Shown: piece after piece, positions 12,907-32,964 of the stretch
How the letters are laid out: each line of letters opens with the position of its first letter
Position numbering within the stretch: the stretch's first letter is position 1
Assembly (NCBI GenBank): GCA_025057205.1
Contig: JANWXR010000006.1
Span: 1-33,846 of the forward strand
DNA: 33,846 nucleotides
Source of the DNA: Anaerolineales bacterium
GTDB lineage: Bacteria; Chloroflexota; Anaerolineae; Anaerolineales; UBA6663
Reading direction: 5' to 3'
The notes under the pieces: generated by a model
The model's database searches: none
Told to the model about the DNA's origin: nothing
What the model saw: the letters and a program-made list of their open reading frames with translations, nothing else
Made by a program: the position numbers and the translations under genes

Positions 12907-14778
12907 TCAATCCGCCACCGGCATCGGTGCCGCCTCTGTCGGCACGCCGTCCTCGTCCCAGCCACGCAAGGCATAGTAGCGCGGCAACATCAGGTCCATA
13001 TCCGGCAGCACACCCGCTGCGCTGCCGGTCGGGCGCGGCTCGAATTGCAGACGGTAAGGCAGTACATCATCCTTGCGCCGTATGCCAAAGGCGACATTGA
13101 TCCGGCGCTTGTAGTTGAAAAGGCGCGCCCCGGTGTCGAGCACGTCCTGAGCCGTCCAGTTCCAGCCCAGGGCTTTATTGAACAGCTCGGCGGTCTGTGC
13201 CGGGGTGAACGAACCTTTGATGATGAACTTACACAGGCCGCCGGGGTTGTACACGCTCATGTAATCTTGGAAGGCGATGGCGGTCTCGGCGCCGAGGGAG
13301 GAGTCAAAGCGGCGGCGTTCCACCCACTCCTGCGCGTCGCCCTCCTGCCAGCCCGGCCACTCGATGCCCACGCCGCGCCAGTAGGAGATGGCCTCCAGAT
13401 GGCACGCGCCCCGGTTGGCGGTGGCGTAGTTGGCGGCCATGCTGACGAATCCGCGCGGGTCGTGATAAGGCACTTCCAGCCCCTTAACATGGACGGCGAA
13501 CTTCTCGCTGCCCTGCCCGATCTTCGCGGCGGCGGCACGCACGCCCTCGGCCAGCAAATCACCGATATCCAATCTCAGCGCGATTTTGTGAATCATCGCG
13601 ATAATGGCATCGGCATCCCCCCACTTCAACTCGATGCCGCCGGTGTCGCGTGAGGTAATCAGCCCTTTCTCGTAGCACTCGAAGGCAAAGGCCAGGACGC
13701 TGCTGGTGGAAATCGTGTCGAGCGCGTAACGGTTGCACAGATCGTTCATCGCGGCGATGGCGTTCAAGTCGTCGCATTGCAGGTTGGAGCCGAAGCCGCA
13801 CAGTGTCTCGTACTCTGGCCCCTCACCGTACACGCCGGCGTACTTTCCGTCCTTCACCTCCACGGCCTTGCCGCAACCGATAGGGCAGGCGTGGCAGTAG
13901 GTGTGCTTGACGAAGATGGTCTCGGCGATGGCTTTGCCGCTGGTCTTGATGGTGCCCTCCAGCCAGTTGCCGCCGCGCCAGTTCAGGATGGCGTTGTCGC
14001 CGAACTTGTCGGTAGTCGGATGGCCGCCCGCCGTGCCGACGAGGTGCAGCGCCTCCGCCGGACCGTGGCTCATGATGTATTTGTTGGACTCCTTCACCGT
14101 AGCGTGGAATCCCTTCGCATCGGCATACTGAGGCTTCTCCTTTCCGCGAACGACGATGGCCTTCAGCCTCTTCGATCCCATCAGCGCGCCCATGCCGCCG
14201 CGCGCCGCCATGCGCGTATGCGGTTGCCCACCGGTCGCAACGCCGGCCAGCTTCACCAGCTTCTCGCCCGCCTGCCCAATGGACGCGCAACGCGCCTTCT
14301 CGTCGGTCTCGGCCAGCAGCGTCGCGTGCGTCTCGAACTGGTCTTTGCCCCAGACGTGGGAGGCGTCGCGGAACTCCACTCGGTCGCCGTTGATCCAGAG
14401 ATAGGTGGGCGACTCGCAGCGGCCTGTCAGGATGATGCCGTCCCAGCCGGCGAAGCGCAGCTCCGCGCCCCAGTGCCCGCCGAGGTTGGCCTCGTTCCAG
14501 ATGCCGGTGAGCGGCGAGCGCCCGCACCACGACGAGCGGCAACCCGTGGGCGCAAAGGTGCCGGAGAGCAAGCCGTTCATGACGATGAGCGGGTTGCGCG
14601 GGTCGAAGACATCCACGGCGGGGTCAATCAGGTCGCGGAACTCTTCGTAGTAGATTTTTGCCGCCAGTCCAGATCCGAGCAGAAAGGCCCGAACTTCGGC
14701 TTCCTGAACAGGTCGCACGTTAACCATGCGCGTGGTGAGGTCAACGTGAAGAAGCTTGCCAGCATAAACGTTGGGCAT
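12907..14778 (-). CDS. Aldehyde ferredoxin oxidoreductase (tungstopterin, [4Fe-4S])
   Basis: 623 aa; ARGGMGALMGSKRLKAIVVRG, YCHACPIGCGKAV plus downstream ETLCGFGSN cysteine, EGPEYETLCGFGSNL typical of AOR. Confidence 0.93.
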   Translation of the reverse strand: MPNVYAGKLLHVDLTTRMVNVRPVQEAEVRAFLLGSGLAAKIYYEEFRDLIDPAVDVFDPRNPLIVMNGLLSGTFAPTGCRSSWCGRSPLTGIWNEANLGGHWGAELRFAGWDGIILTGRCESPTYLWINGDRVEFRDASHVWGKDQFETHATLLAETDEKARCASIGQAGEKLVKLAGVATGGQPHTRMAARGGMGALMGSKRLKAIVVRGKEKPQYADAKGFHATVKESNKYIMSHGPAEALHLVGTAGGHPTTDKFGDNAILNWRGGNWLEGTIKTSGKAIAETIFVKHTYCHACPIGCGKAVEVKDGKYAGVYGEGPEYETLCGFGSNLQCDDLNAIAAMNDLCNRYALDTISTSSVLAFAFECYEKGLITSRDTGGIELKWGDADAIIAMIHKIALRLDIGDLLAEGVRAAAAKIGQGSEKFAVHVKGLEVPYHDPRGFVSMAANYATANRGACHLEAISYWRGVGIEWPGWQEGDAQEWVERRRFDSSLGAETAIAFQDYMSVYNPGGLCKFIIKGSFTPAQTAELFNKALGWNWTAQDVLDTGARLFNYKRRINVAFGIRRKDDVLPYRLQFEPRPTGSAAGVLPDMDLMLPRYYALRGWDEDGVPTEAAPMPVAD

Positions 14779-16183: not shown

Positions 16184-16252
16184 GATTTGAGATTTGAGAT
16201 TTGAGATTTGAGATTTGAGATTTGAGATTTGAGATTTGAGATTTGAGATTTT
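16184..16252 (+). repeat. Heptanucleotide tandem array (GATTTGA), 9 perfect copies plus a partial
   Basis: Counted directly: units start every 7 bp from 16184 to 16240. Confidence 0.97.
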
Positions 16253-21382: not shown

Positions 21383-24145
21383 CTAAGGTTGCCAAGCTGG
21401 GTAGTAATCCGGCGCGGGGTCGGTGGTCAATTGCACCACCTCGCCGCCGGCGATAGGCATTCGGTAAATATCGCGCTCGCTAGCTGCGCGCCAGGACTCG
21501 AACACCAGCCACTGCCCGTCCGGAGACCAGGCCGGTTCATCGTTGAAGCCCTCACCGCGCACGGCGCGGACGCCGAATCCCAGTCCATCCCAGGGCACGG
21601 TGAACAGTCTGTTCTGGAAGACAAAAGCAACCAGGCGACCATCCGGCGACCAGGCAGGCGAGTCGGCGTCCAGGTCGCGCGTCACTTGGCGCGGGTTGCT
21701 CCCATCCTCAAACGTGCCATCCTTATTCATCCAAAAAAGTGTGGGGCGGCCGGCGCGGTTGTTATTGAGAAACACGATGCGCGCGCCATCCGGCGACCAG
21801 GTGGGATGACGATCAAAAGCCGTAGGCGAACTAAGGCGCTGCGGATTGCTACCATCTGCTGCGGCCACATAGACCTGTGGCCGATTGCCTTGCAGAACGG
21901 TGAAGGTCAGGCCGGAGGGCGACCAGTCCGGGTCAAAGATGCCGCCTGCCAGCGTCAGCAATTGCTGCACGTCACTGCCGTCGGCGTTCATCCGATAGAG
22001 AGCTGCGCCGGGGTACGTCTCCGCACGACGCGCGCACGGGCTGATGAAGACCAGTTGTTTACCATCCGGCGACCAGGCCGGCTGACAGGCGCCGTCTGCC
22101 AAATCTGTTAGCGCCGTCTGGTTCGAGCCGTCCGCGTTCATCAGGAAAATTTGCGGCTTACCGTTTCGCTCGCTGACAAAGGCGATGCGGCCGCTCGCGC
22201 CGCCGCCAATGGGCGTCGCCTGAATGGTGGGGGTTGGGGTGGGCGTGACGGTCTCCGTGGGCGTCGGTGAGTTGAGAGGGGTAGGCGTAGCGGAAGGCGT
22301 GGACAACGCCGCGGCTTGCAGGGCGGTCACCGTTGCCCAGATTGGAGCCAGCGTGGGCGGGCCGGGCGGTGTGGTCGTCGGACGAACCTCCGGCGGGCCT
22401 GTGACAAGAAACACTGCGAACACGGCCAGCAGCCCAAGCACCACAAGGCCCAGCGCCAGCCACGCCAGCCAGGCCCGGCTCGGAGAGTCACTCTCTGCTT
22501 TTGCCAATGCTGCAAAACTTTCAACTTCGAGGAGTGCCTCAGCAAACTCAACCGCTGTCTCAAAACGCGCCTGCGGCTGCAGGCTTAGGGCGCGCTCGAT
22601 GGCCTGCGCCAGTTGCGGCGATACATCAGGCCGGCGCTGCCGTAAGGGTGTCAGCGCAACGCGGCCGCCAAGGCGCTCTTGCCCCGTCTCCGGCAGATGG
22701 CCGGTGAGGAGCGTATAGCAGGTGGCGCCCAGCATGTAGAGGTCGCTGCGGGCATCGGTTTTTGCCTCGGGCGGCAGGTACGGCCGGCGGTCTGCGTCCG
22801 CCCAAGCCGTCGGCGTGCGACCCAGGCCGTAATCCACCAGAACTATGCGCCCTTCAAGCGTAAGGCGAATGTTGGCCGGCTTAACATCGGCATGAACGAG
22901 GGGCGGCACCTGGCTGTGCAGATAGTGAAGGGCATCCAGGAGGCGCAGTGTCCAATGCAACACATCAGATTCGGGCAGCGGCCCTTCACGCTCCAGCAAC
23001 GCCTCGGTGCTGTCCCCCCGAATGAAATCCATTACCAGATACAGCCCCTGGCCGGGAAAGATGAAGTAATCACGAAAACGCGGCAGGTGAGGATGACGCA
23101 ACGGAAGGAGCAGCTCGGCCTCGCGGCGGAATTCACGCTCCATCGCCGGCGTCGGCTCGGGAATGAACTTAAGCGCCACGTCCCGCCCCTCGGTCTCATC
23201 ATAGGCTCGATAGACGGCGCCTGACGCACCGGCGGCGATTTCTCCCATCACGCGATAGCGGCCCCGGACAAGCGTGTTGGGTAACAGGCCAATCGCAGCG
23301 CGACGGCGCGCCGGTGGTTGCTCCTCAACACGACCAGGCCGCAAGTGGGTTGGGGGCGTGGACTGCGGCTTCACCTGAGGAGCGGCGGCGGCTTCACTCG
23401 ACTCCGACAAATCCCGGCCCGGCGGAGGTGACTCAGCCGCCGGTGAACCCAACGGATCTGACTCAAGCACGGCAGATGGCTCAATTTTAGCGACAACCGG
23501 CTTGGCCCCAACTTCCCCAGCTTCGCTGCCTGCGTCGGCGTCTCTCTCCAGCTCAGGCACCCCAGTCGGCGTAACGACTTCGGCAAACACCCCGGCTGCT
23601 TCAGCGGCAGTCGGCTCGGCAGACATGCCCGCTGTCTGATCTGGCTCAGGCGCTGAGGTGAGTGTGCCAGGTTCAACTTCAACCCAAGCGCTCTGCGACG
23701 TTGGCGCTGACGGACTTTGTGCCTCGCGGGCGGTTGGCGTCTCAGGGACATCGGTCGGAGACGCTTGGGCAGAAGACTCTGGCGGAGCATCATCCCTCTC
23801 AACTATGGGCGCCGTCTTAGTCACCAGCCAGGCGGGCAGAGCGGGCGAGGGCCGCGGCGGTTCGACGGGCTGAGCCGACTCCGGTGCTGACGACTGGGCA
23901 TTAAGCTCCTCCAGACGGCGGCGTGCTTCGGCGTTGTTCGGGTTGATGTCGAGCACGCGCTGTAAACAATCGCGCTGGATATTGGGGTCGAGAACGGCGT
24001 AGCTGAAGAGCAGCCAGGCACGCTCCGAGCGAGGGTGACGCTCCAGTAGCAGCTTGAGGATCTCCAGAGCCGCCTGCCGCTTGCCGGCTCGGATCAAGCG
24101 ATAGGCCTCGATGAGATCAGAAGTCGGAGTTGAGGAGATCGTCAT
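21383..24145 (-). CDS. Serine/threonine protein kinase: N-terminal TPR-like region, kinase, TM segment, extracytoplasmic TolB-like beta-propeller
   Basis: [84 protein letters not shown]; repeated [12 protein letters not shown]-type units. Confidence 0.93.
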
Positions 24146-25371: not shown

Positions 25372-26370
25372 ATGCCCTGGAACCTGCTCGGCCACGAATC
25401 GGCCCTCGCCCTGTTGCGGCGTGACCTAGCGCAGGATCGCCTGCGGCATGCCTACCTGTTCGTCGGGCCAGAAGGCGTGGGAAAACGCACGCTGGCCACG
25501 GAACTGGCACGGGCGCTGCTGTGCGAGGACGCCGCGCCGCCCTGCGACCACTGCCGGCACTGCGCGCTGGTCGCCAGAGGCGCTCATCCCGACCTGCTAA
25601 CGGTGGCGCCGGCCATCAGCGGTAAACGGGTGCGCGCCGAAAAGATTCGCATCGAACCGGTGCGCCAGCTCATCTACGACCTGTCGCTCAAACCGATCGA
25701 GGCCAAACGGCGCGTGGCCTGCCTGCTCAACTTTGACGCGGCCAACGCTGAAGCCATGAACGCCCTGCTCAAAACGCTGGAGGAGCCGCCTGGCAACGCC
25801 ATCCTGCTGTTGACGGCGGAGAGCGCCGACGAGCTTCTGCTCACCATCGTTTCGCGCTGCGAGGTGATTGCACTGCGGCCCTTACCACTGGCCGTCGTGC
25901 GCGACGCCCTGATCACGCGCTGGCTGATCCCTCATGATCAGGCCGAGCTGCTGGCGCATCTGAGCGGCGGGCGGCTGGGTTGGGCCGTGCGCCTGGCTCA
26001 AGATGCCGAAGCGTTGGAGGAACGCAGCCGGCGACTGGACGAAGTGCAACAACTCCTGAGCGCGCCACGCCTGGCCCGTTTTCAGTATGCAGAGAAGCTG
26101 GCGCGCGAATCCAATCTAGACCGTGTGCAGGCCATACTGGAATTGTGGCAGAGCTTTTGGCGGGATGTGCTGCTGGCCGGCGCGCAGGCGACTGTCCCCC
26201 TCACCAACCTCGACCGGCAGGCCGTCATCCGGCAAATCGCCGGCCGGCTTTCGCCCCAGGCTGCGCATCAGACCCTGCAAGCCATCCGCCGCACCGGCGA
26301 ACTGCTCGCCCGCAACGTCAACGCCCGCCTGGCGCTGGAGACCCTCCTGCTGGATTGGCCCAGACTGTAG
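25372..26370 (+). CDS. holB: DNA polymerase III delta' subunit
   Basis: LLRRDLAQDRLRHAYLFVGPEGVGKRTLATELARALLC, zinc cysteines CDHCRHC, NALLKTLEEPPGNAILLLTAE. Confidence 0.92.
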   Translation: MPWNLLGHESALALLRRDLAQDRLRHAYLFVGPEGVGKRTLATELARALLCEDAAPPCDHCRHCALVARGAHPDLLTVAPAISGKRVRAEKIRIEPVRQLIYDLSLKPIEAKRRVACLLNFDAANAEAMNALLKTLEEPPGNAILLLTAESADELLLTIVSRCEVIALRPLPLAVVRDALITRWLIPHDQAELLAHLSGGRLGWAVRLAQDAEALEERSRRLDEVQQLLSAPRLARFQYAEKLARESNLDRVQAILELWQSFWRDVLLAGAQATVPLTNLDRQAVIRQIAGRLSPQAAHQTLQAIRRTGELLARNVNARLALETLLLDWPRL

Positions 26371-26635
26371 AAAACGAGTAACTGCTCAGGTCATAATCGC
26401 CGATAGGCTGGGGAATCCACAGATGTCGCAGATTGTCGCAGATGAGTCCACTGAAAAAACTACTTTTCAGGCGCAAACGCTACCATATATGGCGTCGAGA
26501 TTACAACCAAAGCGGCATATGTGGCGGCCAAGTGTTTCAATCATGACCTTTTTTCAGGGCACTCACAGATTCTTTTCTGCGAAAATCTGCGTAATCTGTG
26601 GATCAATCAGACAGGCTGAGCAGTTACGAAAACGA
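26370..26635. mobile_element. Non-autonomous MITE-like element with IS66-type ends and 8-bp target site duplication
   Basis: GAAAACGA (26370-26377) + GTAACTGCTCAG (26378-26389) ... CTGAGCAGTTAC (26616-26627) + GAAAACGA (26628-26635); imperfect internal inverted repeat; no transposase-like ORF. Confidence 0.85.
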
Positions 26636-26638
26636 AAC

Positions 26639-28144
26639 CTAACGCCGTAGCAACTGCGGCAGGCGGCCGCGTTTGACAGGCTGAGCGGCTTCGGCTTCTG
26701 AAACGGCCGGTTTCGCCTTCGTTTCGGATTCCAACGGCAACCAAACCGAGAAAGTGGCGCCCTTGTTGGGGCCTTCGGAGGCCGCTTCGATACGTCCGCC
26801 GTGCATCTGCACGATGCGCTGTGCGATAGAGAGGCCCAACCCCGCCCCGCCCTGCGCGCGAGAGCGCGCTTTGTCCACACGGTAGAAGCGATCGAAGATG
26901 CGCGGCAACTCCTCGGCGGGCAGGCCGATGCCGGTATCGCTCACCGTCAGACGCGCCCAATGCTGCACGCGCGCTAAGCCCAGAGTCACGCGCCCACCCG
27001 GCGGTGTATATTTGATGGCGTTCGTGACCAGGTTGAGGATGACCTGCTTCAACCGGTCGCGATCGCCGATGACGCGAGCCTGATCAATCTCGCCGACGGC
27101 CACATGGACCTGGCCGGCGAGGACTTGCACCTCGCGGCACACTTCCAGCAACAAACCATCCAGGTCTACGGGTTTGCGCTCCAGAGGCAGATGGCCGGAG
27201 TCCGCCTGCGCCAGCACGAGCAAATCGCCGACCAGTCGCGTCATGCGCTCGGTCTCCGAGCGGATGTCGCGTAGGGACTCCGGGTCGGCCCCGCCCAGGC
27301 GCTGCAGCAGATCCACGTTGCCACGAATGGCCGTCAGCGGTGTGCGCAGCTCATGGGATACATCGGCCAAGAAGCGGCGCTGCGCGTTGAACAGTCGCTC
27401 CAGCCGCTCCAACGTCTCGTTGAAGGCGACGGCCAGCCGCCCGACTTCGTCGTTTGGGTCTTGGATGGCGATGCGGCGCGAGAGGTCGTCGGCCCGTGTG
27501 ATTTGCAGAGCCGTTTGCGTAATCACGTCAAGTGGCTTGAGCGCGCGACCGGCGGAGAGCCAGCCGATAAGCGCGGCCAAGAGCACCGAAAGCACTCCGC
27601 CGCCTACCAGCACAACCAGCAGGGCCGAGCCAGCGGCCTCCACGGTACGGAGCGATGCGGCGGTCTGCAAGTAGCCGAAGACCTCGCCGTTCGCGCGGAT
27701 GAGGTAGGTGTGAACCCGTAGATGGTCATTGCCCCAGCGGACGTTACGCCGTCCGGGCCTCTTTGCTGCCAGCCCCTCCGGATCAAGTGGGGTAGTGCGC
27801 TGCTTCAGGTTTTCGGTTTGAGTTGCGAGCGTCCCGTCCAGTCGCCAGACCTGCGCCGAGACGTTGAGCGCGCCCAGCGGCTCGTCGGGCGCGGGGATGA
27901 TGACAATGGGCTGATCAAGCACGCGCGCCAGATTGGCGGAGGCCGTAATCCCGTTGGCCGCATCTTCCAGGCTCTGGTCAATCTGGCTGGTCAGGCTGAG
28001 GACGAGGATGGTGTACACCGACACGCCGAACAGGCCGAGGACGACCGTCAGGACGGCGGAGTACCAGAGGGTCAAACGTAAACGCAGGCTCACGGGGAAT
28101 GCGCCTTGCGCCGGCCGGCGGCGCTCGGCGGAGGGAGCGGCCAT
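26639..28144 (-). CDS. Sensor histidine kinase (HAMP, HisKA, HATPase)
   Basis: FLADVSHELRTPLTAIRGNVDLL, NLVTNAIKYTPPGGRV, DTGIGLPAEELPRIFDRFYRVDKARSRAQGGAGLGLSIAQRIVQMHGG. Confidence 0.96.
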   Translation of the reverse strand: MAAPSAERRRPAQGAFPVSLRLRLTLWYSAVLTVVLGLFGVSVYTILVLSLTSQIDQSLEDAANGITASANLARVLDQPIVIIPAPDEPLGALNVSAQVWRLDGTLATQTENLKQRTTPLDPEGLAAKRPGRRNVRWGNDHLRVHTYLIRANGEVFGYLQTAASLRTVEAAGSALLVVLVGGGVLSVLLAALIGWLSAGRALKPLDVITQTALQITRADDLSRRIAIQDPNDEVGRLAVAFNETLERLERLFNAQRRFLADVSHELRTPLTAIRGNVDLLQRLGGADPESLRDIRSETERMTRLVGDLLVLAQADSGHLPLERKPVDLDGLLLEVCREVQVLAGQVHVAVGEIDQARVIGDRDRLKQVILNLVTNAIKYTPPGGRVTLGLARVQHWARLTVSDTGIGLPAEELPRIFDRFYRVDKARSRAQGGAGLGLSIAQRIVQMHGGRIEAASEGPNKGATFSVWLPLESETKAKPAVSEAEAAQPVKRGRLPQLLRR

Positions 28145-31030: not shown

Positions 31031-31070
31031 GATGACTGAAGACTACCGAAGACTGATGACTAAAGACTAG
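31031..31070 (-). repeat. Inverted-orientation, degenerate heptamer arm (CTGAAGA type) ending at CTAG
   Basis: ctgaaga ctaccgaaga ctgatga ctaaaga ctag. Confidence 0.8.
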
Positions 31071-31175
31071 TCTTCAGTCTTCAGTCTTCAGTCTTCAGTC
31101 TTCAGTCTTCAGTCATCAGTCATCAGTCTTCAGTCTTCAGTCTTCAGTCTTCAGTCTTCAGTCCTTAGTCTTCAC
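31071..31175 (+). repeat. Heptanucleotide tandem array (TCTTCAG), ~15 units, in the rplK-rplA spacer
   Basis: Counted at 7-bp steps 31071-31175: mostly TCTTCAG, two TCATCAG, final TCCTTAG and TCTTCAC. Confidence 0.97.
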
Positions 31176-32891: not shown

Positions 32892-32964
32892 CAGGCCAGG
32901 AGGGACTCGAACCCCCAACCACCGCTTTTGGAGAGCGGTGCTCTGCCAATTGAGCTACTGGCCT
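32892..32964 (-). tRNA. tRNA-Trp (CCA)
   Basis: Minus AGGCCAGTAGCTCAATTGGCAGAGCACCGCTCTCCAAAAGCGGTGGTTGGGGGTTCGAGTCCCTCCTGGCCT; anticodon loop CTCCAAA. Confidence 0.96.

Follow-up and report, generated by a model that had tools for sequence, protein, structure and literature searches.

The 250-bp insert between the convergent genes for a HolB-like protein and a sensor histidine kinase was almost certainly made by two successive non-autonomous transpositions, in which an inner MITE entered an outer MITE. An earlier note on the window (the whole stretch of 33,846 nucleotides that was analysed) had described a single IS66-type MITE at this position. That description was correct to the base for the 250-bp length, the GTAA inverted ends and the perfect 8-bp target duplication, but the insert is not one element: it is a 123-bp IS66-type MITE enclosing a 121-bp IS1182-like MITE.

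The outer boundaries were found both by sequence inspection and with a repeat finder. The direct repeat GAAAACGA is present in two perfect 8-bp copies (26370-26377 and 26628-26635) that are 250 bp apart, and directly inside them lie the terminal inverted repeat GTAACTGCTCAG (26378-26389, plus strand) and its exact 12-bp reverse complement (26616-26627, minus strand). Nowhere else in the window does a 12-bp inverted pair directly adjoin 8-bp direct repeats, and none of 200 shuffles produced this arrangement. Between the ends, the left part of the outer MITE (26378-26443, plus strand), with CACAGAT/CGCAGAT units, is followed by the inner MITE with ends GAGTCCACTGAAAAAA and TTTTTTCAGGGCACTC (26444-26564, plus strand) and by the right part of the outer MITE, which includes TCTGCGAAAATCTGCGTAATCTGTGGAT (26571-26627, plus strand). 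The inner element is bordered by a 6-bp duplication of its own, of which the right copy reads ACAGAT (26565-26570) and the left copy GCAGAT (26438-26443). Since most uninterrupted outer copies have ACAGAT at the latter position, the left copy has probably mutated after the insertion. The imperfect interior inversion that had been noticed before is real, but it does not belong to one element, as it is composed of the hairpin of the outer core and the terminal repeats of the inner element. A tandem-repeat scan of the window gave nothing at the composite; elsewhere it contains the heptamer repeats GATTTGA (9.7 units with 100% matches, 16184-16251) and AGTCTTC (15 units, 31069-31174). The only Rfam match in the window is a tRNA at 32892-32964.

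The insertion site is a very short intergenic gap. The holB-like gene for the DNA polymerase III delta-prime subunit (25372-26370, plus strand; Pfam PF13177/PF09115) has an intact 3' end, and the last base of its stop codon is also the first G of the left GAAAACGA copy. The kinase gene runs towards it (26639-28144, minus strand; Pfam HATPase_c, HisKA and HAMP), with its stop at 26639. Without the element and one duplication copy (250 + 8 bp) the two stops would be 10 bp apart, in agreement with the distance proposed before. Two same-family genomes have this convergent gene pair with gaps of about 20 and 18 bp, respectively, and no element. They provide empty sites at the level of the family; the earlier note had proposed to look for one in a sister strain. 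Given these element-free junctions and a HolB C-terminus that is the same as in relatives, the insert is a real transposon insertion, harmless to both genes, as had been claimed. Two other genes of the window may be mentioned here, one encoding a 920-amino acid protein in which a Ser/Thr protein kinase domain precedes WD40-like PD40 repeats (21383-24145, minus strand), the other an aldehyde ferredoxin oxidoreductase with AFOR_N and AFOR_C domains (12907-14778, minus strand).

The size of the outer element follows from its copies in the genome to which the window belongs, a draft of 2.48 Mb in 715 contigs that is 64% complete; the census of copies is based on searches and on individual stretches of this draft. 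When the 250-bp sequence is used as query, many sites align with positions 1-66 and 186-250 joined, while positions 66-188 align alone at other sites, so the outer element is 123 bp long. Most outer copies indeed have this length, contain TCACAGAT once and carry duplications of their own. The GTAACTGCTCAG pattern occurs 25 times in the genome, against once for the reversed control. Perfect 8-bp duplications, which the earlier note had proposed to look for, were found at 10 further copies in this genome, making 11 with the window's own, and each duplication is different. Within a young group, uninterrupted copies share 97-99% identity with the outer part in the window, and older copies 74-86%. 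A copy in a genome from another family of the order is 79% identical and has perfect ends and the 8-bp duplication GTTTCATG. In four other genomes of the same order the GTAACTGCTCAG sequence is very abundant (178, 103, 63 and 68 matches in G025, G027, G010 and G273, respectively, with 0-2 for the reversed control), which suggests that elements bounded by it have undergone large expansions there.

GTAA ends and 8-bp duplications are established traits of the IS66 family. The outer element has both, with the GTAA ends as inverted repeats, and is short, non-coding and present in multiple copies, as expected for an IS66-type MITE. Its assignment to this family, already made from the ends, is strengthened by full-length IS66 elements in related genomes that carry identical 12-bp ends and code for PF03050 transposases. 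One of 1643 bp is found in G001, of the same family (E 1.5e-37), and one of 1569 bp in G128 (E 2.1e-48), of which the transposase scores 320 bits with NF033517 against a cut-off of 180; no obvious 8-bp duplication was seen at the sites of these two elements. The earlier suggestion to look for a complete IS66 with the same ends was thus borne out in related genomes, but not in the genome of the window itself, where no intact IS66 transposase was seen in the 64% complete draft and the sole IS66 match is a truncated gene, with 71% identity to the G001 protein. Visible similarity between the partner elements and the MITE is confined to the terminal 12 bp or so, the interior of the MITE being an unrelated hairpin repeat core. 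An origin of the MITE by simple internal deletion of a sampled IS66 is therefore unsupported.

The 121-bp inner element is a MITE in its own right, with terminal repeats GAGTCCACTGAAAAA. Where it stands alone, the element has 6-bp duplications at its flanks, among them ACGAAT, GAGGGT and ACAAAT; the target duplication in this family is 6 bp, sometimes 7. A possible source of its transposase is indicated by a 1810-bp element in G136, of the same order, which has GAGTCCACTGAAAAA ends and an ATCTGT duplication and encodes a 582-amino acid transposase. The best NCBIfam match of this protein is NF033551 (IS1182; E 7.6e-31), yet its score of 107.5 bits remains below the curated cut-off of 270. The protein is thus a divergent relative, and we call the element IS1182-like rather than a confirmed IS1182 member. 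The inner MITE resembles the IS1182 family in that it shares its ends with an element whose transposase has NF033551 as its best match, and differs from it by the divergence of that transposase and by a 6-bp duplication of the form AYNNRT. In the 64% complete draft genome of the window no intact IS1182-like transposase was seen, only fragments, of which those on contigs C713 and C52 adjoin matching ends. MITEs of 160-169 bp linked to IS1182 have been reported from Methanosarcina (PMC3852290).

From the sequences we infer the following course of events. An IS66 transposase recognising GTAACTGCTCAG ends would have acted in trans to move the 123-bp MITE into the short gap between the convergent holB and histidine kinase genes, with duplication of the 8 bp GAAAACGA. 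Subsequently, an IS1182-like transposase, also acting in trans, would have moved the 121-bp MITE with its GAGTSCACTGAAAAA ends into one of the ACAGAT units of the outer hairpin core, close to its apex, with duplication of 6 bp. It is very improbable that a single 250-bp IS66-type MITE moved as a unit and that the 123-bp copies are its deletion products. The intact outer ends and outer duplication in the window would agree with such an element, as would a second near-full-length match, on contig C555 (90% over 239 bp). However, most outer copies are uninterrupted and have duplications of their own, and the inner part is found alone elsewhere with 6-bp duplications. In C555, moreover, the inner element is located at the same base and in the same orientation as in the window, but the inner parts are 93% and the outer parts 83% identical, whereas the inner part of C555 is 100% identical to a stand-alone copy on C155. 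The simplest reading of these values is that the composites in the window and in C555 are independent insertions at the same point. One ancestral composite would require that the C155 copy left C555 and that the insert was precisely lost from the young copies, and as judged from these comparisons the single-element explanation is largely refuted.

A different scenario, in which the inner element was already inside an outer copy when the composite moved once into the holB/kinase gap, deviates from two successive transpositions at this locus solely in the order of events. The existence of a composite in C555 shows that such structures occur, and since a substitution is present in the inner duplication but none in the outer one, the inner element may have inserted first. 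On the other hand, the searches gave no second composite that is closely related, and the outer part in the window belongs to the young group of uninterrupted copies, so that we consider this order unlikely. Transposition of the outer MITE followed by that of the inner one is the order that we prefer.

The position of the inner element within the outer one appears to be related to target choice. The flanks of 72 inner-type ends display a symmetric preference A-Y-N-N-R-T, with A in 76% at position 1 and T in 82% at position 6. The outer core consists of repeated CACAGAT/ATCTGTG units that supply such AYNNRT targets, and it folds into a strong hairpin (DNA, -33 kcal/mol, z -8.0) with the inner element near its apex. 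In a sample of 30 ends that were selected by their pattern without regard to nesting, 4, from four different insertions, are located in outer elements, which occupy some 0.1% of the genome (an order-of-magnitude estimate from about 25 copies, referring to the whole genome and not to its intergenic share). Other insertions with similar ends inside outer-like copies are found on C120, C42, C684 and C255. A three-level nest is present on C432 (about 1735-2230), where a further element that starts with TAGGAGTTACGCA and ends with TGCGTAAGTCCTA splits an inner MITE that is itself inside an outer IS66-type MITE. This nest adjoins yet another element, rich in CGCGAAGACGCGAAG repeats.

The core repeat also occurs outside the MITE. 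Exact matches to the 28-mer TCTGCGAAAATCTGCGTAATCTGTGGAT were found in 37 stretches; these come from named genomes of many phyla, with hosts that include Verrucomicrobia, Planctomycetes, Omnitrophota, Nitrospinae, Desulfobacteraceae and Thiosymbion. An inverted partner arm lies no more than 110 bp away in 18 of 38 cases, where shuffles predict 1.9, and none of the 38 has the GTAA ends. The exact core combined with a GTAA end was not found in named genomes, a set that may lack records of the window's own genome and of those near it. A search of the literature for the core sequence gave nothing relevant. Tentatively, a dyad repeat (ATCCACAGAT... / ...AATCTGTGGAT), which exists in many phyla without IS66 ends, may have become enclosed by such ends, and the resulting MITE may offer a mobile landing pad to further MITEs, in stacks of up to three levels; the landing-pad role is suggested by the match between the ACAGAT/ATCTGT units and the preferred target of the IS1182-like transposase.

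The earlier note had also suggested that the insert now acts as a bidirectional transcription terminator. We regard recruitment for this purpose as improbable. The location between convergent stops and a very stable predicted RNA fold of the composite (-104.2 kcal/mol, z -9.2) are the two points in favour of it. However, a terminator scan of both strands in 26200-26800 detected no GC-rich stem with a T-run after it, and relatives do without an element at this junction. The fold is explained by the dyad structure, since the 123-bp outer element has the same hairpin-like character by itself, at whatever site it is located. The insert is probably a hairpin-rich composite without selected function, which persists because of its position between two gene ends.

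Comparison with IS66, IS1182-linked MITEs, IS1272 and palindrome-targeting elements identifies the locus as a new example of kinds that are already known. For IS1272, which belongs to the IS1182 family, insertion into inverted repeats is reported, in which the repeat is replaced and no duplication is left (PMC5678879). The inner element likewise has as target an inverted repeat able to form a stem-loop, but this repeat is kept and 6 bp of it are duplicated; hairpin replacement as in IS1272 is thus rejected here. Insertion sequences that target REP palindromes are also known (PMC1525189), and the inner family shares with them the recurrent insertion at a fixed point of another dispersed palindromic repeat, whereas most of its copies lie outside the outer element and its preference is for AYNNRT and not for one unique site. 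Among the papers listed in literature searches on nested bacterial MITEs and on IS66 MITEs, no description of these two families was seen. The only less ordinary part of the locus is the recurrent use of one MITE as a target by another.

The locus calls for caution in the annotation of small mobile elements, as more than one element can lie within a single pair of perfect terminal repeats that is flanked by a perfect duplication. It also offers a clear case of MITE nesting in a bacterium for which both partner transposon types are identified, and a testable rule for the stacking of small transposons, in which the AYNNRT target of one is supplied by the hairpin core of another mobile element.
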